Assembly (NCBI RefSeq): GCF_947581915.1
Contig: NZ_CANPWG010000074.1
Span: forward strand, 1-60,527
Reading direction: 5' to 3'
Length of the DNA: 60,527 bases
Origin: Candidatus Palauibacter scopulicola
GTDB taxonomy: Bacteria > Gemmatimonadota > Gemmatimonadetes > Palauibacterales > Palauibacteraceae
Numbering within the stretch: the first letter of the stretch is position 1; each line of letters begins with the position of its first letter. A program made the translations under genes and the position numbers. The notes beneath the pieces were generated by a model, which saw only the letters and a list, made by a program, of their open reading frames with translations, made no database searches and was not told the DNA's origin. This document shows, one piece after another, positions 1 to 41,815 of the stretch.

Positions 1-25
1 GTCCGCCCCCGCCCTCCGGCTCAAG

Positions 26-44
26 CAGCCCGTGGCCACGGCTC
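26..44 (-). terminator. hairpin at the end of the minus operon
   Basis: Bases 27-43 can fold as AGCC.GT / AC.GGCT with one bulge, and the hairpin overlaps the kinase stop codon. No T-run follows inside the window, so a terminator role is only suggested. The left arm contains GCAGCCCGTGG, an 11-mer repeated elsewhere in the window. Confidence 0.3.
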
Positions 45-1524
45 AGACCCGGGCGGGACGGCGCGGCCAGTCCGCCGATTCGCGGTGCGTGACCTCCACG
101 CGCACGTCCGGGAAGCGGACGCTCAGGTGCTGGCGCAGCCGCTCCGCCATGTACACCGAGCGGTGCTGTCCCCCCGTACACCCGAAATGCACGCTCAGGC
201 TGTGGAACCCGCGGTCGAGGTAGTTCGCGATGTGGGCGTCCACGATCCCCCGCACCCGTTCCCAGAACTCCTGCGCCTCCGGCCGGGCCGCGATGAAGGC
301 GATCGTCTCCTCGTCGAGCCCCGTGAGGTTGCGGTACGCCTCCTCCCGGCCCGGATTCGGGAGCCCGCGGCAGTCGAACACGTATCCTCCGCCGTGACCC
401 GACGTGTCCGCCGGGTATCCGCCGGGATACCGGAAGCTCGAGACCGTCACCTCCAGCCCTCTCTCGACCGCCGACGGCTCCGCCTTGCGGCCCCAGCGCT
501 CGACGATCGCGCGCAGCGCCCCCTCGAGTTCGGGGACGTCCACGGGCAAGCCCGCCCTGAGCAGCCCCCGCAGGTTCTCCGCCGCGTAGGGTACGCTCTG
601 CAGGAAGCGCGGCTTGCGTTCGAAGAACCCCCGGTAACCGTAGGCTCCGAGCGCCTGCAGCAGCCGCACGAGGACATACCCGGGCCAGAGTTCGAGAAAC
701 TCGTCGCGCCGCGCGACCCCGTGCGATTCGAGGACGCCGATGTAGTGATCGAGCAGCGCCTCCCGGTGCCGGCGCGCGAGATTCGCCTTCGAATCGTAGA
801 GGAGCGACGCCACGTCGTACTGCAGCGCCCCGCGCCGTCCGCCCTGGTAGTCGATGAACCAGGGCTCCGGACCCTCCGCCCCCCGTCGCACCATCACGTT
901 GCGGGACTGGAGGTCGCGGTACAGGAACCGGGACCGGTCGCACGCGAGCAGGTGGCGGGCAAGCCGCGAGAAGTCGCGCTCCAGATCCGCCTCGTTGAAC
1001 GGGATGTGCGCGAGCTTCAGGAAGTGGTACTTGAAGTAGTTCAGGTCCCAGAGGATCGACTGCCGGTCGAACGCCGCCCGCGGATAGGCCCGGCGGAAGT
1101 CGATCCGCTTCCCTCCCTCGACCTGGAAGCGGGGCAGGATCTCGAGCACCTGCCGGTAGAGGGGGAGGACGGCGTCCGGGAAGGCGTCCGATCCCGGATC
1201 GCGCGCCTCCTTGATCGCGTCGAAGAGGGTCGTGTCGCCGAGGTCCTCGAGGAGCCACACGCCGGACCTCTCGTCCGCGCCGTACACCTCCGGCACGGGC
1301 AGCCCGAGTTCGCGCAGGGTACGGGAGTAGGAGAGGAAGGCCCGGTTCTCCATCGCGTCCGGCCCGTGGGCGCCGATGGCGGACGCCCCGTCCCCCGCCG
1401 TGAGACGCCAGTAACTGCGCGTGGAACCGTCCGCGGCGACCGGCCGGATGTCCCGCGGCGGCTCGCCGTGCCACTCGACGAAGAGCGCCGACGCGAGGTC
1501 GACCAGCGCCTTGCCGGGAATCAT
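43..1524 (-). CDS. AmgK-like sugar kinase fused to RapZ C-terminal domain
   Basis: 493 residues. The N-terminal ~340 residues are an APH/choline-kinase fold of the COG3178 type, which includes AmgK, the anomeric MurNAc/GlcNAc kinase. The catalytic loop YRDLQSRN (Asp204, Asn209) and metal-binding FIDYQ (Asp225) are intact. Residues ~358-482 are a RapZ C-terminal domain with the signature GCTGGQHRSVY (448-458) and YVFDCRGLPNP. In enterobacterial RapZ this domain binds glucosamine-6-phosphate and regulatory RNA, but sits behind a P-loop domain; here that domain is replaced by a sugar kinase. The ATG at 1524 overlaps the pyrD stop as ATGA, so it is the last gene of the minus operon. Amino-sugar phosphorylation coupled to GlcN6P sensing is inference. 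Confidence 0.88.
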   Translation of the reverse strand: MIPGKALVDLASALFVEWHGEPPRDIRPVAADGSTRSYWRLTAGDGASAIGAHGPDAMENRAFLSYSRTLRELGLPVPEVYGADERSGVWLLEDLGDTTLFDAIKEARDPGSDAFPDAVLPLYRQVLEILPRFQVEGGKRIDFRRAYPRAAFDRQSILWDLNYFKYHFLKLAHIPFNEADLERDFSRLARHLLACDRSRFLYRDLQSRNVMVRRGAEGPEPWFIDYQGGRRGALQYDVASLLYDSKANLARRHREALLDHYIGVLESHGVARRDEFLELWPGYVLVRLLQALGAYGYRGFFERKPRFLQSVPYAAENLRGLLRAGLPVDVPELEGALRAIVERWGRKAEPSAVERGLEVTVSSFRYPGGYPADTSGHGGGYVFDCRGLPNPGREEAYRNLTGLDEETIAFIAARPEAQEFWERVRGIVDAHIANYLDRGFHSLSVHFGCTGGQHRSVYMAERLRQHLSVRFPDVRVEVTHRESADWPRRPARV

Positions 1525-2471
1525 CCGGTCGGAATCGCGGGTCCGGAGCCCGGCCGGGCCCGGAGTGCGCCCACGAGATCCTCGAGGCGCGCGACGCCGT
1601 TCGCCTTCAGGTATGCCGAGAGCCCTTCGTGTACGTCCACCGCCGCGCCGGGATCGACGAACGAAGCCGTCCCGACCTGGACGAGACAGGCGCCGGCGAG
1701 GATGTACTGCAGGGCGTCCTCGGCGTTGCGGATGCCCCCGATTCCCATGATCGGAAGCCCGCACGTCTGCCGCGCCCGCCACGTCGCGTAGACGCCCATG
1801 GGAAGGATCGCGGGGCCGCTCACGCCGCCGGACCGGTTGCCGATCAGCGGTTGGCGCCGCCCGATGTCGACGACCATCCCGGGGAAGGTGTTGATCGCGC
1901 TCAGGCCGTCGGCCCCCGCCTCCTCGCAGATGCGGGCGAAGTCGCCCACGTCGGGGACGTTGGGCGTGAGCTTGATCACGAGCGGCCGCTCGGTGCAGCC
2001 GCGGAGCCGCGCCACGAGGTCGGCCAGCGCCCGTTCGTCGGTGCCGAACATCGTGCCGCCCTTCACGTTCGGACAGGAAACGTTGATCTCGTACCCGAGG
2101 AAGCCGTCCTCCCCGTCGAGTCCGCTCACGACGGCCGCGAAGTCCTCCGCCGAGTGCCCGACGACGTTCACGAACACCTGGGCGCGACGGAGGTGCTCGC
2201 GCAGCCACGGGAGCTTCTCCGCGATGAAGCCGTCCAGGCCGGGGTTCTCGAGCCCGATCGCGTTGATCATCCCGCCGGGCGTCTCCGCGACGCGGTGCGG
2301 CGGGTTCCCGGGGCGGGGCTCGAGGCTCACCGCCTTGGTGACGAGTCCTCCGATCTCGTCGAGGGGGATGAGATCCGCGTATTCCTGCCCGTAGCCGCAC
2401 GTGCCGGAGGCCAGGAGCACGGGACTCGGAAACTCCGCCCCGAACACGCGCTGGACGAGGCCCGGGGACAC
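1521..2471 (-). CDS. pyrD: dihydroorotate dehydrogenase, class 1B catalytic subunit
   Basis: About 316 residues; oxidises dihydroorotate to orotate in pyrimidine synthesis. It is an FMN TIM barrel with the class 1 active-site cysteine in NVSCPNVKGG, the phosphate-binding IGIGGI segment and a C-terminal GASLVQVG-type motif (GACLVQVGTASF). Class 1B needs PyrK to pass electrons to NAD, and pyrK lies directly upstream. No ATG is available near the expected N-terminus; I chose the GTG at 2471, which gives the normal family length, but a CTG overlapping the pyrK stop is possible. The 3' end overlaps the kinase-RapZ start by 4 bases. Confidence 0.93.
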   Translation of the reverse strand: MSPGLVQRVFGAEFPSPVLLASGTCGYGQEYADLIPLDEIGGLVTKAVSLEPRPGNPPHRVAETPGGMINAIGLENPGLDGFIAEKLPWLREHLRRAQVFVNVVGHSAEDFAAVVSGLDGEDGFLGYEINVSCPNVKGGTMFGTDERALADLVARLRGCTERPLVIKLTPNVPDVGDFARICEEAGADGLSAINTFPGMVVDIGRRQPLIGNRSGGVSGPAILPMGVYATWRARQTCGLPIMGIGGIRNAEDALQYILAGACLVQVGTASFVDPGAAVDVHEGLSAYLKANGVARLEDLVGALRARPGSGPAIPTG

Positions 2472-2482
2472 CGATGCCGAGC

Positions 2483-3295
2483 TCAGATCGCCCCCCAGTC
2501 GAGTTCCTCGGCGGGGAAGACGGAGCCCTCGATGCACGACTTCACCCAGCGGCCGTCCGCTCCGCGCACGACGCACCCCTGGCAGGTGCCGATCCCGCAG
2601 CCCATGTGCTCCTCGACCGAGACCTGGAGCCGGCGGCCGTGTTCCCGCGCGAAGGCCTCGAGCGCCCGCAGGAGCGGCGTCGGGCCGCAGCCGAGGAGGA
2701 GCGCGCTGGACGCCGGATCGAGGCCCGCGGTCACGAGGCCCTTGCGGCCGGCGCTCCCGTCTTCGGTGAACAACTCCGGGTCGTGATCCGTGAGGCGGGC
2801 GATGAGCGCGGGATCGAAGACGGCCGCGGCATCGCGCTCTCCGTAGATGAGCCGCACGCGCCGCCCCGCCGTCGCCTCGCGCGCCGCGAGGAAGATGAAG
2901 GGGGCGAGCCCGACGCCGCCCGCGACGCACTCGACCTCCTGGCCCTCCGTATCGAAGGGGCGGCCCAGCGGACCGAGGAGGAGGGCGGTCTGCCCGACCT
3001 CCAGCTTCGCGAGCGCCCTGGTGCCCTCTCCGTAGGCGCGCAGGAGGATGCCGACCTCGCCGCCGGGGCCCGTCCAGCCGACGCTGAACGGACGCGGAAG
3101 GAGCCAGGCCCCCGGCGCGTCGAGCCCGACGCCGAGCATGACGAACTGCCCGGGGAGCGCGGCGGCCGCGATGTCCGGGCAGTCGAACTCCTGCCACCAG
3201 GTATCGCGGGCCACGAGGCGCGTGGAGAGCAGCGCCGCCCGCCGGCTCACGGGGGTCGCGCGCCCCACGGCCACATCGCCGCCGGCGCTCAGCAC
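2483..3295 (-). CDS. pyrK: dihydroorotate dehydrogenase electron transfer subunit
   Basis: 270 residues. Ferredoxin-reductase-like protein carrying FAD and a 2Fe-2S cluster that links PyrD to NAD. The FAD-binding motif RPFSV, the nucleotide-binding GGVGLAP and LLGCGP loops, and the C-terminal cluster CGIGTCQGCV plus a fourth Cys (SCIEG) are all visible. The ATG at 3295 lies inside the end of the amidase gene (7-base overlap), which indicates translational coupling. Length and motif order are normal for PyrK. Confidence 0.94.
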   Translation of the reverse strand: MLSAGGDVAVGRATPVSRRAALLSTRLVARDTWWQEFDCPDIAAAALPGQFVMLGVGLDAPGAWLLPRPFSVGWTGPGGEVGILLRAYGEGTRALAKLEVGQTALLLGPLGRPFDTEGQEVECVAGGVGLAPFIFLAAREATAGRRVRLIYGERDAAAVFDPALIARLTDHDPELFTEDGSAGRKGLVTAGLDPASSALLLGCGPTPLLRALEAFAREHGRRLQVSVEEHMGCGIGTCQGCVVRGADGRWVKSCIEGSVFPAEELDWGAI

Positions 3296-4548
3296 CCCGA
3301 CTCCGGCGCGGGGGCGTACCGGCGCAGCAGGTCGGCGCGATAGGCCACGACCGCATCCGCGATCGCCCGCGCGATCGCTTCCTGTCCCTCCACCCCGTTC
3401 AGGTAGCGCTCCTCTTCATCGTTCGAGAGAAAACCCACTTCGACGATCACCGACGGCATGCGCACGAGCGCCCCGAGGAGGACCCACCAGGGGCCCTGTA
3501 TGACGCCGCGGTCGGGGGACCCGCCGCGCCGGACCCTTCGGATCGAGTTCTGCACGAACCCGGCGAAGAGCCGCGACTCCGCAAGATTCTCCGTACGGTC
3601 GATTCCCGCGAGGATGAACTGGACATCGGAGGGCGAACCCGCTGCGTCATCCACTTCCGGGCCCCGGTTCTCGCGCAGCGCGACCTCGCGCGCCTCCTCC
3701 GAGCGGGCCTGTCCGAGGAAGATGGTCTCGAACCCGCGCGCCCGTTCGTCTCCCGCGGCGTTGGCGTGGATCGAGACGAAGAGGTCGCCGGCTCGGTCCA
3801 CCGCGAACTGGGACCGCTCGTCGAGATCCACGTAGACATCCGTGGTCCGGGTCATGTGAGGCTCGAACATCTCGCGCCCATCGAGTTCGTCGTACAGCCG
3901 TCTCGCGATCGCGAGCACGACATCCTTCTCGTAACTCCCGCTGCCCAGCGTTCCCGGGTCCCGGCCTCCGTGCCCCGGGTCGATGATCACGCGCCACGGC
4001 GCCGTCGGGTCGACGCGGGCCGGCAACGGGTCCGGCGGCGGCGGTGAGGACGGGGACGCCGGGGTCGAGGCGGGCACCGGCGACCCTTCGGCCGCGGCGG
4101 CGACCGGCGGCGGTCCCTCCGACACCCACCGCGTGACGAACTCGGCCGGAAGCCAGAAGGCGCCGCCTTCCTCGTAGGGTGGGTTCGCAAGCTGCACCGC
4201 GCGTCCCCCGTGCCGGAAGAAGGGAGACTCCGCCTCGAACGCGACCTCTTCGCCGTGGAAGCGGGCGCGCAGGAACACACCGTTTCTCGTGACGCCGTCG
4301 AGGGCGGTCTCCAGCGCGAGCGCGAGATCGGCCGCCGCCACCACGGGGTAGGCCCGGTGCCGCGCGACGGGGAAGCTCACGGTACGGCCCGAGACCTCCG
4401 CCTGTACCGTGTCGGGTGGCGCCTGTGCGTCGATTCGCACCGGGATTCCGCAGAGCACGGTCTGGGCAACGACGACGGTGGCAACCGCGATCCGCCCCTG
4501 CGCCCCCACCCGGTCGCGTCCGCCGCCGGCTCCCTCGTCAACCGCCAC
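3289..4548 (-). CDS. N-acetylmuramoyl-L-alanine amidase, AmiC-like
   Basis: 419 residues. Zinc amidase (Amidase_3) that cuts peptide stems from septal peptidoglycan. It has an N-terminal hydrophobic export segment (~20-36), an AMIN-like or copper-amine-oxidase-like N-terminal region, a Pro/Ser-rich linker (~147-180) and the catalytic domain (~185-410). Zinc ligands are His193 (IDPGHGG), Glu207 and His261 (SIHANA); catalytic Glu370 lies in VEVGFLSN. Residues ~285-340 form an insertion rich in Glu/Arg, in the position of the autoinhibitory helix of EnvC-regulated amidases. The start overlaps the smpB end by 11 bases. Confidence 0.92.
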   Translation of the reverse strand: MAVDEGAGGGRDRVGAQGRIAVATVVVAQTVLCGIPVRIDAQAPPDTVQAEVSGRTVSFPVARHRAYPVVAAADLALALETALDGVTRNGVFLRARFHGEEVAFEAESPFFRHGGRAVQLANPPYEEGGAFWLPAEFVTRWVSEGPPPVAAAAEGSPVPASTPASPSSPPPPDPLPARVDPTAPWRVIIDPGHGGRDPGTLGSGSYEKDVVLAIARRLYDELDGREMFEPHMTRTTDVYVDLDERSQFAVDRAGDLFVSIHANAAGDERARGFETIFLGQARSEEAREVALRENRGPEVDDAAGSPSDVQFILAGIDRTENLAESRLFAGFVQNSIRRVRRGGSPDRGVIQGPWWVLLGALVRMPSVIVEVGFLSNDEEERYLNGVEGQEAIARAIADAVVAYRADLLRRYAPAPESGC

Positions 4549-15736: not shown

Positions 15737-16401
15737 TCTGGCTGAGGGATGTCTCGAAGGCCTATCCGCGCTCCGGAGACGCACTGCGGGGGGTTTCGTT
15801 CCGTCTCCGGAAGGGGGAGTTCGCCTTCCTCACGGGACCGTCGGGGGCCGGCAAGTCGACGGTGCTCGAACTGATCCACTTCCAGACCCGGCCGACCGAG
15901 GGCGAGGTGCAGGTCTCGCGCTACAACTCGAGGCGGGTCCGCCGCCGGGACATCCCCGCGCTGCGGCGGCGCGTGGGGTTCGTGTTCCAGGACTTCAAGC
16001 TGCTGGAACGGCTGACGGCGGCGGAAAACGTGGCCTTCGCGCTCGAGGTCATCGGGACGCCGCGGCGCGAGATCGCCGGGCGCGTCCAGCGGCTGCTGAG
16101 CCAGGTCGGGCTCGCGGCCCGCGCCCGCTCGAGACCCTCGGAACTCTCCGGCGGGGAGCAGCAGCGCGTCGCGGTGGCGCGCGCGCTCGCCACCGAACCG
16201 CGGATCCTCCTCGCGGACGAGCCCACGGGCAACCTCGATCCCGACGCCGCCGGGGGGGTGTTCGAGTTGTTCCGGATGCTGAACCGCCTCGGCACGGCCG
16301 TGCTCATGGCGACACACGACGCGGATTTCGTGCGCCGGCACGCCGGGATCCGCCAACTTGAACTGGAGGACGGGCGACTCGTCCGCGATTCCGCCGCGTG
16401 A
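15733..16401 (+). CDS. ftsE: cell division ATP-binding protein FtsE
   Basis: 222 residues. ABC ATPase that powers FtsX-dependent activation of septal cell-wall hydrolysis. Walker A GPSGAGKST (~36-44), Q-loop FVFQDFKLL, signature LSGGEQQRV, Walker B ILLADEPTGNLD and switch His (ATHD) are intact. Overlaps pdxA and ftsX by 4 bases at each end. Followed by ftsX and envC, which fixes the identity against other short ABC ATPases such as LolD. Confidence 0.95.
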   Translation: MIWLRDVSKAYPRSGDALRGVSFRLRKGEFAFLTGPSGAGKSTVLELIHFQTRPTEGEVQVSRYNSRRVRRRDIPALRRRVGFVFQDFKLLERLTAAENVAFALEVIGTPRREIAGRVQRLLSQVGLAARARSRPSELSGGEQQRVAVARALATEPRILLADEPTGNLDPDAAGGVFELFRMLNRLGTAVLMATHDADFVRRHAGIRQLELEDGRLVRDSAA

Positions 16402-17273
16402 GAGCCGTGCGCGAGGCGATCGCCGGCTTTCGGCGCACCCCCCTGCTGTGCGCCCTTTCCACCGGAGCGGTGGGGCTCAGCCTCGTGATCCTCGGTCTCT
16501 TCGGGCTCGTCGCGCACAATGTCGGAGGGGCGATCGGCGACGTGGAACGCCGCGTGGAGGTCGTCGGGTACCTGCTTGACGACGCCGGTCCGGAACAGGT
16601 GCGGGCCGCCCGGCGGGAGTTGGAGGCGCTCCCTGCGGTGGAGTCGGTGCGCTACGTCTCGAAGGACGAGGCGCTGGAACGGGCCCGGCGCGATCTCGTG
16701 GAGTTCTCCGACGTCTACGGGGAACTGCGGGTGAACCCGCTTCCCGCCTCGTTTCACCTCAGGTTGCGGGAGGGCTTCCGCACGCCGGAGACGGTGTCGG
16801 AGACGGCGGGCGCGCTCGCGGCGTATCCGTTCATCGAAGAGGCGCGCTTCGGAGACGAGTGGGTGGAGCGGCTCTTCACGCTGCGGAGCGCGGCGGCGGG
16901 GATCGCCCTCGCCCTGGGCGGCGGGTTCGCGCTGGTCGCCGTGCTCCTGATCGTCACGACGGTGCGCATGGCCGTCCTCGCGCGCGGCGAAGAGATCGAG
17001 ATCATGCAGATCGTGGGCGCGCGGGAAGGCTACATCCAGCGGCCCTTCCTCCTCGAAGGGGCGGTGACGGGGCTCGCGGGCGGGCTGCTCGCGCTCGGCG
17101 TCACGCGGCTCGCGTACGCCGTCTTCCCCGCGCGTTTCGCGGCCGTCGAATCTCTCGCGTGGCTCCCGCATTCCTGGACCGCGGCGGGCGTCGCCGCCGC
17201 CGCCGCGCTCGGCCTGCTCGCCGCCGCCTTCTCCGTGCACCGTGAAGTGGGACGGGTGTATGGCCCATCCTAG
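16398..17273 (+). CDS. ftsX: cell division protein FtsX
   Basis: 291 residues from a GTG overlapping the ftsE stop. Four transmembrane segments: one near residues 16-40, then a periplasmic loop (~45-150, ending near the EARFGDEWVERL segment), then three C-terminal helices. The periplasmic loop is the part that contacts EnvC in characterised systems. EEIEIMQIVGA is the typical FtsX cytoplasmic coupling motif. Confidence 0.94.
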   Translation: MRAVREAIAGFRRTPLLCALSTGAVGLSLVILGLFGLVAHNVGGAIGDVERRVEVVGYLLDDAGPEQVRAARRELEALPAVESVRYVSKDEALERARRDLVEFSDVYGELRVNPLPASFHLRLREGFRTPETVSETAGALAAYPFIEEARFGDEWVERLFTLRSAAAGIALALGGGFALVAVLLIVTTVRMAVLARGEEIEIMQIVGAREGYIQRPFLLEGAVTGLAGGLLALGVTRLAYAVFPARFAAVESLAWLPHSWTAAGVAAAAALGLLAAAFSVHREVGRVYGPS

Positions 17274-18504
17274 TCCGGGCGGGGGCGTGCAATGCCGCGC
17301 GTGGAAGGCGCGGATCGTTGCGGCCGTGAGCGTCGCCGTCGCGACGATCCCGGCGTGGACCGCGCCGGCTTCCGCGATCGCGCAGGAGTCGCCGGATGTG
17401 CGGCGCCGCCTCGACGAGAGCCAGGCGCGGCTGGAGGTCATCCGCGAGGAGCGGCAGCGGCTGCGCCGGGAACTCGCGGGGATCGCCGGGCAGGTCAGCG
17501 GCGACTCGGCCGAACTCGTGAACATCGAACGCCAGATCGACGCGTCGGCGAGCCTCATGGCCGAGTTCGACGTTCAAGTGCTCGCGCTCTCCGACCGGCT
17601 CACGGCCATGACGCGCGAGATGCTGCTCACGCGCGACGAACTCACGGCGCGCCGGGTCGTGCTGAGGGCGCGGCTCCGCGACATCTACAAGCGCGGCCCC
17701 CTCCGCACCGTCGAGGTGCTCCTCTCCTCGAGGTCCTTCTCGGACCTGCTCAATCGCTACCGGTACCTTCGCGATGTCGCCGTCTTCGACCGCATGCTCC
17801 TGGAGGACGTGAGGGAACTCGAAGGCAGGCTCGTGGAGCAGCGCGGCGGGTTGAGCCGGGAAGGCGACCGAATCGCCGGCGTACGGGCGGAGCACCTCCG
17901 GGAATACGACGAGCTCGAGAGGCTGGAGTGGGAGCGGCAGGAGCGGTTGCGCCGCTTCGCCGACCGACGCGACGAGGCGCAGTCGACGCTGGCCCGGCTG
18001 GCGACGGAAGAGGCCGAGCTTCGCGCGCTCATCGGAGGCCTGGAAGAACGACGCCGCGCGGCGGAACGCGCGGCGGGGTCGGCGTCCGTCTCATCGCTGA
18101 CGACCGGGGATCTCGGTCGCCTCGCCTGGCCGGTCGAGGGCGAGCTCCTGTGGCGCTTCGGGCCCGAGCGGGAAGGACGCACGACGATCCCGCGCGAAGG
18201 GATCGGCATCGCGGCCCCGCGCGGCACGCCCGTGAACGCGGTGGACCGCGGCACCGTCGCTTCCGTGGCGGCACGCGCCTCGGGACATACGGTGATCCTC
18301 GATCACGGAGGAGGCTTCTACTCGTCCTATCAGAAGCTCCGCGACGTCAGCGTGCGCGAGGGACAGCCGGTCGGCGAGGGACAGCCGATCGGACACGTGG
18401 GCGGGGACGCCACCCGGCCGCACATCGAGTTCCAGATCTACGAGCCGGGGGCGGTGGGGCCCCGCGCGGTGGATCCGGTCCGGTGGCTGCGGGGCCGCCC
18501 ATGA
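17260..18504 (+). CDS. envC: EnvC-like murein hydrolase activator (degenerate LytM)
   Basis: About 414 residues (GTG at 17242 is an alternative, +6 residues). Signal peptide ends near SAIAQE. Residues ~35-270 are a long coiled coil typical of EnvC, followed by a LytM/M23 domain. The metal site is degenerate: the HxGxD-type motif reads REGIGIAA, lacking both the His and the Asp, and the final HxH reads HIE. This fits an inactive LytM domain that activates amidases instead of cutting peptidoglycan. It directly follows ftsEX and overlaps ftsX; the amidase partner is likely the AmiC-like protein in the divergent operon. Confidence 0.9.
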   Translation: MAHPSPGGGVQCRAWKARIVAAVSVAVATIPAWTAPASAIAQESPDVRRRLDESQARLEVIREERQRLRRELAGIAGQVSGDSAELVNIERQIDASASLMAEFDVQVLALSDRLTAMTREMLLTRDELTARRVVLRARLRDIYKRGPLRTVEVLLSSRSFSDLLNRYRYLRDVAVFDRMLLEDVRELEGRLVEQRGGLSREGDRIAGVRAEHLREYDELERLEWERQERLRRFADRRDEAQSTLARLATEEAELRALIGGLEERRRAAERAAGSASVSSLTTGDLGRLAWPVEGELLWRFGPEREGRTTIPREGIGIAAPRGTPVNAVDRGTVASVAARASGHTVILDHGGGFYSSYQKLRDVSVREGQPVGEGQPIGHVGGDATRPHIEFQIYEPGAVGPRAVDPVRWLRGRP

Positions 18505-36743: not shown

Positions 36744-39700
36744 TCAACGGCAGCCGCCGCCGCGGCCCCAACTCATGGTGGGGGGCGGGTCGCGTCTCAG
36801 CGCCTCCAGGTACGCGAAGGGCGTCTCATCCTCACCTTCAACGGCGGGGACCGTCTCGCGGCCCGGGCGGAGTTCGGGGCTCAGGCGCAGCGGGTACACG
36901 CCCCCGGCGAGCACGTTGTACGTCGCGCCGTCCTTCTGGAGCGTGCCGTCGATGTAGAGGAAGGGTTCGAGGCGGATCGCGGCGCGGCATTCCCGGTACA
37001 CCTCGGGCCTCACGATCGCGTTGACGGGCCCGAATTCGTCCTCCATGAGGATGAAGATGTAGCCGTTGGCCGTGTGCGGGCGCTGGCGGGCCACGACGAT
37101 TCCGGCCACCCGCACGTCGCTCCGGTTCGGAAGATCGGGGAAGCGGGACGAGGAGACGGTGCGCTCGGGGAGGTGGTCGCCCACGAGCGCGAACGGGTGG
37201 TGCTGTGAGGCGGCGAAGGAGAGGAGGCGGTACTCCGCGATCAGCTTCTCCATGTCGTGCGTGCCCGCGAAGCGGAGATCCGCGTAGGGATCGCCGAGCG
37301 AGAGTTCGATCTGGCCCTGGTCCGAGCGGCCGGCGCCTCGGCGGCCCCGTACGGGGGGCGGCGCGTCTCCGCCCAGCCCCGCGGCGCCCGTCGCCAGTTC
37401 GCGGCGGCGGCGTTCCGTTTCCGTCTCGGCCTCCGGACCCAGCCAGAGCCCCGTCTGCCACAGCAGGTCGCGGCGTTCGATCCCCAGCGAGTCGAGCCCG
37501 CCGACCCAGATCAGGTTCTCGATCGCGGCCCGCTTGAGCGCGGCCGGGGTGCGGCGCAGGAAGTCGGGCAGCGACGCGAACGGCCCGTCCCTCCCGCGCT
37601 CGGCCACGACGAGTTCGGCCGCCTCCGCCCCCCAGTCGCGGACCATGCCGAGGCCGATGCGGACATCGCCCTCTTCGGCGGTGCAGGCGACCTCGCTGAC
37701 GTTCAGGTCCGGAAGCCGGACGCCGACCCCGTGCCGGCGCGCATCGCGCCCGATCGCGTCGAGCGAGTAGAAACCCATCGGCTGGTTGTTGAAGAGCCCG
37801 ACGTAGTACTCGGGCGGGTAGCGGTCGCGGAGCCAGGCGGACTGGTAGGCGAGGAGCCCGAACGCCACCGCGTGCGACTTCGGGAACCCGAACTCCGAGA
37901 ACGCGACGACCTGTTCGAACACTTTCTTCGCGGTGGGGCCGTCGACCCCCTTCGCCGCCGCACCGTCCCGGAACGCGGTCCAGTACCCCAGCAGCGCCTC
38001 GCGCGAGCGCTTGCGGCTCATGGCGCGCCGCAGCCCCTCGGCCTGGCCGTCGCTGAAGCCCGCGAGCGCCCGGCACACCTGCAGCACCTGGTCCTGGAAG
38101 ATGATCACGCCCAGAGTCTCGCCGAGCGCCTCCTCGAGCAGGGGGTGGTCGTAGGGGACGACGTAGTCCGGGTCGTTGCGCAGCTTCTCGCGTCGCCGGA
38201 CGTAGGGGTTCACCGCCCCGCCGACGATCGGGCCCGGCCGCACGATCGCGACCTGGACCGCGAGGTCGGCCAGGTTCCGGGGCCGCACCCGCCGCAGCAT
38301 CTGGATCTGCGCGCGGCTCTCGACCTGGAACAGCCCCACCGTGTCTCCCGAACAGATGCGGTCGTAGATCCCCTCATCCTCGTAGTCGATGCGGGAGAGA
38401 TCGGGGACCTCGCCGTGGCGCAGATGAATCGTCTCCACCGCTTCCTCGACGAGCGACAGCATCCCGAGCGCGAGGAAGTCGATCTTGATGAAGCGCGCGT
38501 CGTCGCAGGAGTCCTTGTCCCACTGGCAGAGGACGCGCCCCTCCCACGCGGCGGGCTCGAGCGGGACGATCTCCACCAGCGGCCGGCTCGAGATGATCAT
38601 CCCGCCCACGTGCTGGGAGATGTGCCGCGGGAGCCCCCTGATCTCCCCGGCCAGTTCGGCGAAGACCCGCCAGATGCGCGAGTTGGCGCGCGCTTCGAGG
38701 CCGGGGATGCGCTCGAGTTCGGCCATGAACCCGTCCTCTCCCGGCTCGGCGAGTTTGGCCAGCTTCTCCACGTCGCCGGCAGGCAGGCTGAGCGCCTTGC
38801 CCAGTTCGCGCACGATCGAGCGCGTGCGGTAGGTGGGAAAGGTGCACACGAGCCCGACGTGGTCGTACCCGTAGCGCTCGTAGACGGCGAGGATCAGTTC
38901 TTCCCGGATATCGCGCGCAAAGTCGATGTCGATGTCCGGGACGCTCTCCATGGCGTCGTTCAGGAACCGGCCGAGGAAGAGGTTCGTCCGTACCGGGTCG
39001 ACGTGGGAGAGTCCGATCAGGTAGCAGATGATGGAGGAGACCGAGGATCCGCGTCCGCGCCCCGGCGGAAGCAGTTGGCGCGGCATCGAATCGCCCCGCA
39101 CGCGGTGCGCGACCTCCCGGGCCAGTTCGAGGATGTCGTGATAGACGAGGAAGAACCCGGCCAGGTCGTGCCGGTCGACGAGCGCGAGTTCGGAGGCGAG
39201 CCGCTCCTCGGCTTCGCGGCGGTATCTGCTGCCGGGGGGATAGCGGATCTCGAACGCCCCGCGGCAGGCGTGGTGCAGGACGCGCATGGCGGGGGCGAAG
39301 CCGCTTCCCCTGAAGTCGGGGAAGCGGTAGCCGAGGTCGGCGGTGAGATCGAACGCCCGGCAGCGCTCGGCGATCGCGCGCGTGTTGCGGAGCGCGTCGG
39401 GCCGCGACGCGAAGCGCCACGCCATCTCGCGGGGCGAGGCGAGGTGGAAGCAGGCGTTGGGGCGGCGGAGCTCGTGCGAGTCGTCGACCGTCGTCCGGTT
39501 CCGGATCGCGACCATGACGTCCTGGAGACGGTGCCGGTCGGCGACGTGGTAGTGGACGTTGCCCGTGGCCACGACCGGGATGCGGAGCCGGTCGGCCAGC
39601 GCGCCCAGCGCCCGTCCGCGCGCGAGGTCGCCGTGGACCGCGTTGTTCTGGAGCTCGACGAACAGGTTGCCGGGGCCGAAGGCGTCGCGCAGGCGGGCGG

Positions 39701-40211
39701 CCAGCCGCTCGGCCTCGTCCGTCCCCCGTTCGAGCGCCGCGAGGAGGGGGCTCCGGCGGCACCCCGTGAGGAGGATGAGCCCCTCGGGCCGCTCGAGGAG
39801 CGCGGCGAGGTCGAGCCGGGGCTCCCTTCGCGGACTCTCCATATGCGCCTGTGTGATGAGCCGGCACAGGTTCGCGTACCCCGCCGCGTTCTCCGCCAGC
39901 ACCGTAACGTGGCAGTCGCCCGTTTCCGCCCCCCGTTCCGTTGGCGCGCGGCCTCCGGACGTTCCCGCGGGAACGTCTCCGGCGGCGGCAAACGGCGAGG
40001 CGAGGGTGAGTTCGGCACCGGTGATCGGCTGCAGCCCGTGGGCGCGGGCGAATTGCGCGAACTCCATCGAGCCGTACAGCCCGTCGTGGTCGGTGAGCGC
40101 GAGCGCGGGATAGCCCAGTTCGAGCGCCCGCGCCGCGAGTTCCTCGGGCCGCGACGCTCCATCGAGGAAGGAGTAGGCCGAGTGCGCGTGCAGTTCGACG
40201 TAGTCGGCCAC
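36744..40211 (-). CDS. dnaE2: error-prone DNA polymerase DnaE2/ImuC
   Basis: 1155 residues. Translesion polymerase of the SOS mutasome, partner of ImuB. PHP domain with the DnaE2 signature ELHAHSAYSFLDGAS, the catalytic palm with PDIDIDFARDIRE, the HhH and C-terminal OB domain (VRVAGIVVARQRPHTANGYI). The region following ALTDHDGLYGSMEFA has a ~25-residue Gly/Pro-rich insert (~75-100) that makes it slightly long. Last gene of the imuB operon, 6 bases after the DUF6504 gene. Confidence 0.95.
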   Translation of the reverse strand: MADYVELHAHSAYSFLDGASRPEELAARALELGYPALALTDHDGLYGSMEFAQFARAHGLQPITGAELTLASPFAAAGDVPAGTSGGRAPTERGAETGDCHVTVLAENAAGYANLCRLITQAHMESPRREPRLDLAALLERPEGLILLTGCRRSPLLAALERGTDEAERLAARLRDAFGPGNLFVELQNNAVHGDLARGRALGALADRLRIPVVATGNVHYHVADRHRLQDVMVAIRNRTTVDDSHELRRPNACFHLASPREMAWRFASRPDALRNTRAIAERCRAFDLTADLGYRFPDFRGSGFAPAMRVLHHACRGAFEIRYPPGSRYRREAEERLASELALVDRHDLAGFFLVYHDILELAREVAHRVRGDSMPRQLLPPGRGRGSSVSSIICYLIGLSHVDPVRTNLFLGRFLNDAMESVPDIDIDFARDIREELILAVYERYGYDHVGLVCTFPTYRTRSIVRELGKALSLPAGDVEKLAKLAEPGEDGFMAELERIPGLEARANSRIWRVFAELAGEIRGLPRHISQHVGGMIISSRPLVEIVPLEPAAWEGRVLCQWDKDSCDDARFIKIDFLALGMLSLVEEAVETIHLRHGEVPDLSRIDYEDEGIYDRICSGDTVGLFQVESRAQIQMLRRVRPRNLADLAVQVAIVRPGPIVGGAVNPYVRRREKLRNDPDYVVPYDHPLLEEALGETLGVIIFQDQVLQVCRALAGFSDGQAEGLRRAMSRKRSREALLGYWTAFRDGAAAKGVDGPTAKKVFEQVVAFSEFGFPKSHAVAFGLLAYQSAWLRDRYPPEYYVGLFNNQPMGFYSLDAIGRDARRHGVGVRLPDLNVSEVACTAEEGDVRIGLGMVRDWGAEAAELVVAERGRDGPFASLPDFLRRTPAALKRAAIENLIWVGGLDSLGIERRDLLWQTGLWLGPEAETETERRRRELATGAAGLGGDAPPPVRGRRGAGRSDQGQIELSLGDPYADLRFAGTHDMEKLIAEYRLLSFAASQHHPFALVGDHLPERTVSSSRFPDLPNRSDVRVAGIVVARQRPHTANGYIFILMEDEFGPVNAIVRPEVYRECRAAIRLEPFLYIDGTLQKDGATYNVLAGGVYPLRLSPELRPGRETVPAVEGEDETPFAYLEALRRDPPPTMSWGRGGGCR

Positions 40212-40217
40212 CGGCGG

Positions 40218-40520
40218 CTACTCCGGCTGCAGGAACCAGCGATCCAGCATCAGATCGTGGTACGCGGTGAGGTGGGCGCCGTTCTCGAGCACGATCGAGA
40301 AGTAGGCGCGCGAGATCGGTTCCCTCCACCACTCGTCATCGATCCGCCACTGGTCGGCCACGTCGCCGATTCGGCGCCAGCGCCCCCGGATCTCGAGGCT
40401 CACGGGCACCCCGGCGCCGCCGAGCCGGACCCGCACCGGACGCGGCCGGTTGAGCGGGCGCAGCTTCCCCGCGGGCGGCTTCGGCCCCCGCGATTTCGGC
40501 GCCGCACCGGGGCTCGCCAC
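40218..40520 (-). CDS. DUF6504 small protein of the mutasome operon
   Basis: About 100 residues from a GTG 5 bases after the imuB stop. An N-terminal basic Pro/Lys-rich stretch (~1-35) leads to a compact domain: RVRLGGAGVPVSLEIRGRWRR, then the conserved DQWRIDDEWWREPISRAYF, then a strand ending in DRWFLQ. DUF6504 proteins recur next to Y-family polymerase genes in other high-GC bacteria. No biochemical role is known to me. Its place between imuB and dnaE2, with no imuA nearby, suggests an accessory of the mutasome (inference). Confidence 0.75.
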   Translation of the reverse strand: MASPGAAPKSRGPKPPAGKLRPLNRPRPVRVRLGGAGVPVSLEIRGRWRRIGDVADQWRIDDEWWREPISRAYFSIVLENGAHLTAYHDLMLDRWFLQPE

Positions 40521-40525
40521 GCCCG

Positions 40526-41815
40526 CTACGCGATCTCCATGAGCGCGTGCCGGCGCTCGGGGATTCGGGAGTTCGGCTCCAGTTCGAGCACCCGGAACAG
40601 CGCGGCGCCGCCCAGCCGCAACCGCAGCAGGCGCGCCGCGCGGCGGAACGCGGGCAGGAGTTCGCCATCCTTCGTCTCCAGCGAACCGAGGACGCGGGCC
40701 GCGCCCTCCTTCGGGTCGAAGAGCCCCGTCTGCGCGCTCGCCGGGCCGAAGCGGAAGAGTTCGAGCCGCAGCGTCTCGACCGCGCGGCGGGGCCGGTCGA
40801 GCGCGATCCGCGAGCGCAGGAACGCCCCGAGCCGTTCGGGCTCGCTCGTGGGTTCCCGGGCAACCGCGCGAATCGACCAGGAGCCGCCATCCTCGAGGCT
40901 CGCAGACACCCTGAGGCCGCGGACGCTCTTGCCTCGCCGCCGCGGATGCTCGAGCGCGCGAGCGATGAGCCGGTCGAGCGCGGCGTGCAGCAGTTCGAGC
41001 TGTCCGATCGGGCTCGGGAAGTCGAGCGCGACGCGAATCGGCCGGGCCGGCGCCTCCGGCCGCACATGGTCGATGCGCGTCCCCCGCGCCCAGGCGAGCG
41101 CCCGGCGCCCATCGGCCCCGAACTGCGACACGAGCGCCGGCTCGGGCATGCGCACGAGCTGCCCGAGCCGCCGGACCCCGAGCCGCTTCAGCCGCCCGGC
41201 CATGCGCGGCGACACCGGCAGCACATCGACCGGCTGCGGCGCCAGAAACGCGGCCAGGTCGACCGCCGCCACGCAGACGGCCGCGCCCGGCCGATCGGAA
41301 CCCGCCGGGCAGGCGGGCTCCGCGGCCCGCGCCGCGACCCAGGCCGCGAACTTTCCCGGCGCGCAGCCGATCCGCGCGCTCGACGCGAGCCACGGCGACA
41401 GCGCTTCGAGCCGCGCCCGAAGTCCCGCGACCTGCCGCCCGGGGGGGCCGTACAGGCGTTCGAGCCCATCGACCCCCACGAACATCCGGCCCCGCTCGGT
41501 CGACCGCTCGACGATCGGACTCCACCGGCGGAGGACTTCCAGAACCCGGTCGCGCGCCGCGTCGTGAAAATCCGGATCCGGCTCGCAGAGGACGAGCGAG
41601 GGACAGAGCGCGATCGCCTGCGAGACGATCATCCCCGGCTCGACCCCGAAGGAGGCCGCGAGCGCGCACCCCATCTCGATGCGGCGGCGGTCCCCCAGCG
41701 TGGGCAGCGCGAGCGGCCGGTCCGCGAGCGACGGCGTCCGGACCCGCTCCAGTTCCAGTTCGAATCCCGGCCACCAGAGGCAGAGCGCCATCCGGCTCCC
41801 GCGACCTGCGTCCAT
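40526..41815 (-). CDS. imuB: ImuB-like, catalytically degenerate Y-family polymerase
   Basis: 429 residues (ATG 41791 would give 421). The Y-family fold is recognisable from FGVEPGMIVSQAIALCP, GVDGLERLYG, LARIGCAPGKFAA-type blocks and the HhH segment RLKRLGVRRLGQLVRMP. The first catalytic Asp of active polymerases is replaced by hydrophobic residues (LCLWWPGF), and the SxDE motif is absent, as in ImuB. It links the beta clamp, DnaE2 and other factors without polymerising. AAAGG 5 bases upstream favours ATG 41815. First gene of the imuB-DUF6504-dnaE2 operon. Confidence 0.88.
   Translation of the reverse strand: MDAGRGSRMALCLWWPGFELELERVRTPSLADRPLALPTLGDRRRIEMGCALAASFGVEPGMIVSQAIALCPSLVLCEPDPDFHDAARDRVLEVLRRWSPIVERSTERGRMFVGVDGLERLYGPPGRQVAGLRARLEALSPWLASSARIGCAPGKFAAWVAARAAEPACPAGSDRPGAAVCVAAVDLAAFLAPQPVDVLPVSPRMAGRLKRLGVRRLGQLVRMPEPALVSQFGADGRRALAWARGTRIDHVRPEAPARPIRVALDFPSPIGQLELLHAALDRLIARALEHPRRRGKSVRGLRVSASLEDGGSWSIRAVAREPTSEPERLGAFLRSRIALDRPRRAVETLRLELFRFGPASAQTGLFDPKEGAARVLGSLETKDGELLPAFRRAARLLRLRLGGAALFRVLELEPNSRIPERRHALMEIA

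Follow-up and report, generated by a model that had tools for sequence, protein, structure and literature searches.

An AmgK-like sugar kinase was found fused to the C-terminal domain of RapZ in one protein of 493 aa, encoded at 46..1524 on the minus strand of the window, which is the whole 60,527-nucleotide stretch of DNA that was analysed. This architecture is real and old, it occurs widely, and no description of it was found in the literature searched. Judged from sequence, the salvage of MurNAc to UDP-MurNAc was its best-supported function, since a gene for a MurU-like nucleotidyltransferase adjoined the fusion gene, including in the window's own genome, where the pair was reconstructed across a 55-bp contig overlap. 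In the proposed mechanism, the kinase half would add a phosphate at the anomeric carbon of MurNAc and perhaps of GlcNAc as well, and MurNAc-1-P would be converted to UDP-MurNAc by the MurU-like enzyme that the next gene encodes. In the RapZ-C half, a CX5R loop would hydrolyse the MurNAc-6-P that AnmK produces, and the resulting MurNAc would be handed over to the kinase half. One polypeptide would then perform the steps of both MupP and AmgK.

The gene started with ATG at 1524 and ended with a TGA stop codon at 43-45. It consisted of an N-terminal APH/AmgK-like kinase domain (residues 1-344; 493..1524, minus strand) followed by a RapZ C-terminal domain (residues 358-482; 79..453, minus strand). 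AlphaFold2, using 54 related sequences, predicted two confident domains with a mean pLDDT of 93.4, and a low-confidence linker was located at residues 348-353. Foldseek matched the two domains to APH-type kinases and to the RapZ C-terminal domain (RapZ-CTD), respectively. The preliminary description had placed the gene at 43-1524, with the kinase in front and RapZ-C behind, and had reported an intact kinase motif set and the sequence GCTGGQHRSVY in the back half. These points were all borne out, the order of the domains by Pfam, AlphaFold and Foldseek alike. The fusion gene lay in a same-strand run with pyrD, pyrK, an N-acetylmuramoyl-L-alanine amidase gene (Amidase_3; 3289..4548, minus strand, context only) and smpB on its upstream side. 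Its start overlapped pyrD (dihydroorotate dehydrogenase; 1521..2450, minus strand, start approximate) by 4 bp (ATGA), so the two genes are probably co-transcribed. Two other gene sets were seen elsewhere in the window. A DNA polymerase III alpha-like gene adjoined an ImuB-like (IMS) gene at 36744-41815 (minus strand), which is the layout of an ImuB/DnaE2 mutasome. At 16398-18504 (plus strand), an FtsX-like gene was followed by a gene for an M23 peptidase with a PcsB-type coiled coil, and these likely form an FtsX/EnvC-type division pair.

The window's genome was placed in Gemmatimonadota on the basis of its relatives, and the distribution of the fusion was investigated in a phylum sample of 297 Gemmatimonadota genomes. 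The kinase/RapZ-C protein was detected in 44 of them, although the match in G179 covered the front part only and the copy in G148 was split over two contigs. RapZ_C (PF22740) was found in 43 of the 297 genomes, all within the 44 and at fusion sites. This meant that the RapZ-C domain was obligately fused in this sample (43/43 RapZ-C-bearing genomes), and canonical RapZ was not seen among the 297 genomes. A scan of GTDB contigs gave at least 587 confirmed relatives. The best 80 of these carried the labels Gemmatimonadota, Bacteroidota, Ignavibacteria, Calditrichia, Marinimicrobia, Elusimicrobia, Acidobacteria, Opitutae, Armatimonadetes, Planctomycetota and Deferribacteres, taken as given on the contigs, many of which were metagenome bins. 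An assembly or frame artefact, or a chance reading frame, was rejected, as the full length was conserved across phyla, with fused copies in 43 further Gemmatimonadota genomes and on hundreds of contigs elsewhere. The tree of 55 fused proteins roughly tracked these groups, with many forks weakly supported, and its sequence-based topology therefore suggested that the fusion is old and mainly vertically inherited. It had been supposed earlier that the architecture may recur in other phyla and that it lacked a functional description. Fused homologues under about eleven phylum labels confirmed the first point. The second agreed with our literature search, in which no paper was found on RapZ together with AmgK or MurU, nor on the fusion. 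The possibility that the two halves are separate proteins in most relatives was contradicted for Gemmatimonadota, where all 43 RapZ-C-bearing genomes had the fused form.

Further copies and relatives were also recorded. G124 carried two fused copies (L041 and L050), 63% and 56% identical to the window protein, and a separate MurU-like gene followed each copy. At L136-L141, in another class of the same phylum, unfused kinases were found that shared about 35% identity with the kinase half. They were rejected as orthologues and treated as paralogues because they had no MurU-like neighbour and lay in a different, recurring gene setting. Among 50 fusion genomes outside the window's class, ten contained a second RapZ-C protein, and all ten were canonical RapZ with the P-loop half. 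The fusion as a substitute for canonical RapZ was thus not general.

The kinase half matched APH (PF01636) with 41 bits over residues 25-262. The catalytic Asp204 (913-915), Asn209 (898-900) and the Mg-binding Asp225 (850-852, all on the minus strand) were present and at least 97% conserved among 124 fused proteins. The AmgK models were the top NCBIfam kinase matches for the window protein. However, the scores of 49.9 and 49.7 bits did not reach the equivalog cut-offs of 500 and 550, respectively, and the fused kinases of two other phyla scored 36-67 bits. In Foldseek, the front half was most similar to 3csv. This structure itself scored best against an AmgK model, with 270 bits, which was likewise under the cut-off. 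Since about 50 bits stood against cut-offs of 500-550, the sequence of the kinase half is AmgK-like, distant from characterised AmgK, and no AmgK equivalog.

The gene neighbourhood supported the salvage function. Wherever a Gemmatimonadota locus left room downstream, the fusion was directly followed on its own strand by a MurU-like nucleotidyltransferase gene. In a wider set of 78 loci, from which two loci without room were excluded, it lay within 600 bp of the fusion in 51. In the window, only the intergenic lead into this gene was present (1..42, minus strand, by own-genome match), and the partner was missing for the sole reason that the contig ends there. The own-genome partner was identified on contig C42 (C42:12169-12924, minus strand), with 92% identity to the gene of a relative, and it began 57 bp from the end of C42. 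The end of C42 and the window edge at base 1 overlapped by exactly 55 bp, between the fusion and the MurU-like partner. This meant that the window edge is an assembly break. The MurU models were the best NCBIfam match for all seven partner representatives tested (7/7), and one partner had MurU of P. putida and P. aeruginosa as its best solved relatives. The partners scored 118-145 bits against the cut-off of 250 for NF045761, so that the MurU equivalog cut-off was not reached. A survey of flanking genes also showed that, at the Bacteroidota loci L104, L130, L122 and others alike, the pair is flanked by genes for an AddA-like UvrD helicase and an AddB-like PD-(D/E)XK nuclease.

These results suggested that the salvage part alone is probable, with the kinase making MurNAc-1-P and the MurU-like partner making UDP-MurNAc. 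Work on Tannerella forsythia points to a route from MurNAc to UDP-MurNAc in Bacteroidota (PMC5790795, PMC7670621). A search of the own genome for AmpG (TIGR00901) gave no match.

The back half was a RapZ-C domain by profile and by predicted structure. PF22740 scored 110 bits against a cut-off of 27 over residues 358-482. Foldseek aligned the model to E. coli RapZ-CTD with TM scores by query of 0.73-0.79, a TM score by target of 0.88 for 5o5s, and about 35% identity. The P-loop ATPase domain (PF03668) was not found by profile search in the window protein or in the own genome. The sequence GCTGGQHRSVY was located at residues 448-458, and Gln453 and Tyr458 varied slightly among the 124 fused proteins. 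In contrast, C449, G451, G452, H454, R455, S456, D384, R386, N390, G392 and H480 showed no variation. The pocket residues of E. coli RapZ have been defined previously (PMC5737377, PMC9841335), and C247, T248, G249, H252 and R253 were retained in the loop of the fusion. However, the position of the pocket residue His190 was occupied by Gly392 in 124/124 fused proteins. For this position and for insertions, the fused form was compared with RapZ of E. coli and with ten canonical RapZ proteins encoded in genomes that also carry the fusion, and the His190 position varied among the canonical proteins. A Gly-rich insertion of five residues (374-378), roughly x-S-G-H/N-G, was present in the fusion and absent from canonical RapZ. 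In the window protein it read TSGHG, within the segment D373-Y381 (382..408, minus strand).

It had been proposed that the protein could be an amino-sugar kinase coupled to a sensor, with the back half reporting the level of GlcN6P. The kinase part of this proposal was supported by the intact motifs, and a role in amino-sugar (MurNAc) salvage by the MurU-like partner gene. The sensor part was unsupported as stated. The GCTGGxHRS phosphate loop was kept, and E. coli RapZ-CTD binds GlcN6P by SPR (PMC7073468). However, the remaining pocket appears remodelled, by the change at His190 and by the insertion. In addition, the RNA-binding tail of E. coli RapZ, a feature reported for Enterobacteriaceae alone (PMC7073468), was absent from the fusion, whose C-termini were short and variable among the 124 proteins. 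GlcN6P sensing is therefore not simply transferable from E. coli RapZ.

The phosphate loop C449-T-G-G-Q-H-R455 (160..180, minus strand) had the CX5R pattern with invariant Cys449 and Arg455, and the models placed it between a strand ending at C449 and a helix beginning at R455. The domain may be a MurNAc-6P phosphatase because of this CX5R layout, which has been likened in print to the loops of tyrosine phosphatases. Khan and Goerke pointed out a resemblance between the RapZ pocket and the loop of cysteine-dependent tyrosine phosphatases, and they proposed that GlcN6P is hydrolysed (PMC7199280). Islam and colleagues found that C247A and C247S of E. coli RapZ were both inactive and suggested a catalytic thiol, and density in the E. 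coli RapZ crystal with GlcN6P was taken for chemically transformed GlcN6P (PMC9841335). A tyrosine-phosphatase fold was not found for the C domain among the 50 Foldseek matches listed of 83 at E <= 10, so that the resemblance was local only. The residues D384, H454 and H480, all invariant among the 124 fused proteins, were mere candidates for a general acid. We regard the phosphatase part, in which the loop would hydrolyse MurNAc-6-P and pass MurNAc to the kinase, as tentative, with substrate, activity and hand-over all putative. The whole explanation, which joins this part to the salvage kinase and its MurU-like partner, is plausible and falls a little short of an even chance. A broader reading is possible and somewhat more speculative: RapZ-C would be a RapZ-fold CX5R sugar-phosphate phosphatase, the fusion a bifunctional MupP-AmgK, and E. 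coli RapZ a regulator that keeps or reuses an enzyme active site.

The main alternative was that RapZ-C is a non-catalytic sensor, which would bind GlcN6P or a similar hexosamine phosphate, switch the kinase and thereby adjust salvage to the amino-sugar supply. The invariant anion-binding loop and the GlcN6P binding of E. coli RapZ-CTD would suit such a role, and the low-confidence linker predicted at 348-353 would suit a tethered regulator. The fusion was also retained in AnmK-less genomes, where AnmK would supply no MurNAc-6-P. However, the uniform Gly392 and the Gly-rich insertion alter the pocket, and strict conservation of a Cys would be unusual if the site only bound a ligand. Sensing may occur, but we consider it somewhat doubtful. 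An enzymatic, phosphatase role of RapZ-C appeared at least as likely, with a slight lean to hydrolysis.

The MurNAc-6-P link was followed in the phyletic pattern of AnmK and MurQ. AnmK was present in 41/44 fusion genomes of the Gemmatimonadota sample compared to 196/253 of the others. MurQ was nearly universal in the sample and occurred together with the fusion in the window's own genome. A general replacement of MurQ by the fusion, as simply predicted, was not borne out, since most fusion genomes keep MurQ, and only the subset with AnmK and without MurQ fitted it. Among AnmK-bearing genomes, MurQ, here judged by a strong E-value rather than the curated cut-off, was absent from 6/41 with the fusion and from 1/196 without it (Fisher p = 1.2e-4, which is optimistic because the counted genomes are related). 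The six genomes belonged to six genera in three families, and one of them, G068, was a single-contig genome. In the 50 fusion genomes of other groups, AnmK was found in 37 and MurQ in 32. AnmK occurred without MurQ in 11 of the 50, which therefore need another outlet for MurNAc-6-P. Seven had neither gene, including the isolate Alkalitalea saponilacus, and MurNAc-6-P therefore need not be the substrate. These mixed data leaned towards a link with MurNAc-6-P without requiring one.

A second alternative was that the kinase acts on another sugar, such as GlcNAc only, a heptose or another hexosamine, and that the neighbour makes a different NDP-sugar. The scores far under the AmgK and MurU equivalog cut-offs would allow this, and the models for HddC and mannose-1-P guanylyltransferase matched the partner as well. 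However, the AmgK and MurU models were top-scoring in every case tested, and the two-gene order mirrors that of amgK and murU, which have consecutive locus tags in Caulobacter (PMC13046382). Another substrate was considered improbable. It is very unlikely that the fusion links the kinase to an RNA or to another protein, in the way that GlmY/GlmZ and RNase E are bound by E. coli RapZ, with the sugar chemistry of the C domain secondary: the E. coli RapZ domain alone binds sRNA and its pocket touches the RNA backbone (PMC9841335, PMC7073468), but the RNA-binding tail is reported for Enterobacteriaceae alone (PMC7073468), the C-termini of the fusion are short and variable, and the canonical RapZ of 10/50 fusion genomes could keep such a role.

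RapZ has been studied in enteric bacteria as an RNA adapter and a sensor of GlcN6P, and the need for its pocket Cys, irreplaceable even by Ser, has been a puzzle. In the fusion, often in a genome without canonical RapZ, the RapZ loop is joined to a probable kinase of cell-wall sugar and paired with a MurU-like gene. This offers a metabolic setting in which the chemistry of RapZ-C can be assayed directly. In addition, the MurU salvage route, known until now from few species, would extend to several major phyla in fused form, and the annotation 'RapZ' need not imply RNA regulation.

The fusion was compared to known systems. It resembled the AmgK-MurU pathway of Pseudomonas and Caulobacter in that an APH-fold kinase gene was followed by a MurU-like nucleotidyltransferase gene, in the best matches to AmgK and MurU models and in the occurrence of AnmK in most fusion genomes. 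However, its kinase bears an extra RapZ-C domain and is distant from characterised AmgK. With RapZ/YvcJ (RNase adapter RapZ), the fusion shared the C-terminal fold and the GCTGGxHRS anion loop. It differed in having a sugar kinase in place of the P-loop ATPase half, Gly at the His190 position, the Gly-rich insertion and no enterobacterial RNA-binding tail. The C-x-x-G-x-x-R-S loop between strand and helix, with invariant Cys and Arg, was similar to that of cysteine-dependent (CX5R) phosphatases, whereas the C domain of the fusion has the RapZ-CTD fold and its activity is putative. MupP, the MurNAc-6-P phosphatase of Pseudomonas, is a HAD-family enzyme. The reaction proposed for RapZ-C would occupy the same place in the pathway as that of MupP, but the candidate RapZ-C is an unrelated domain.
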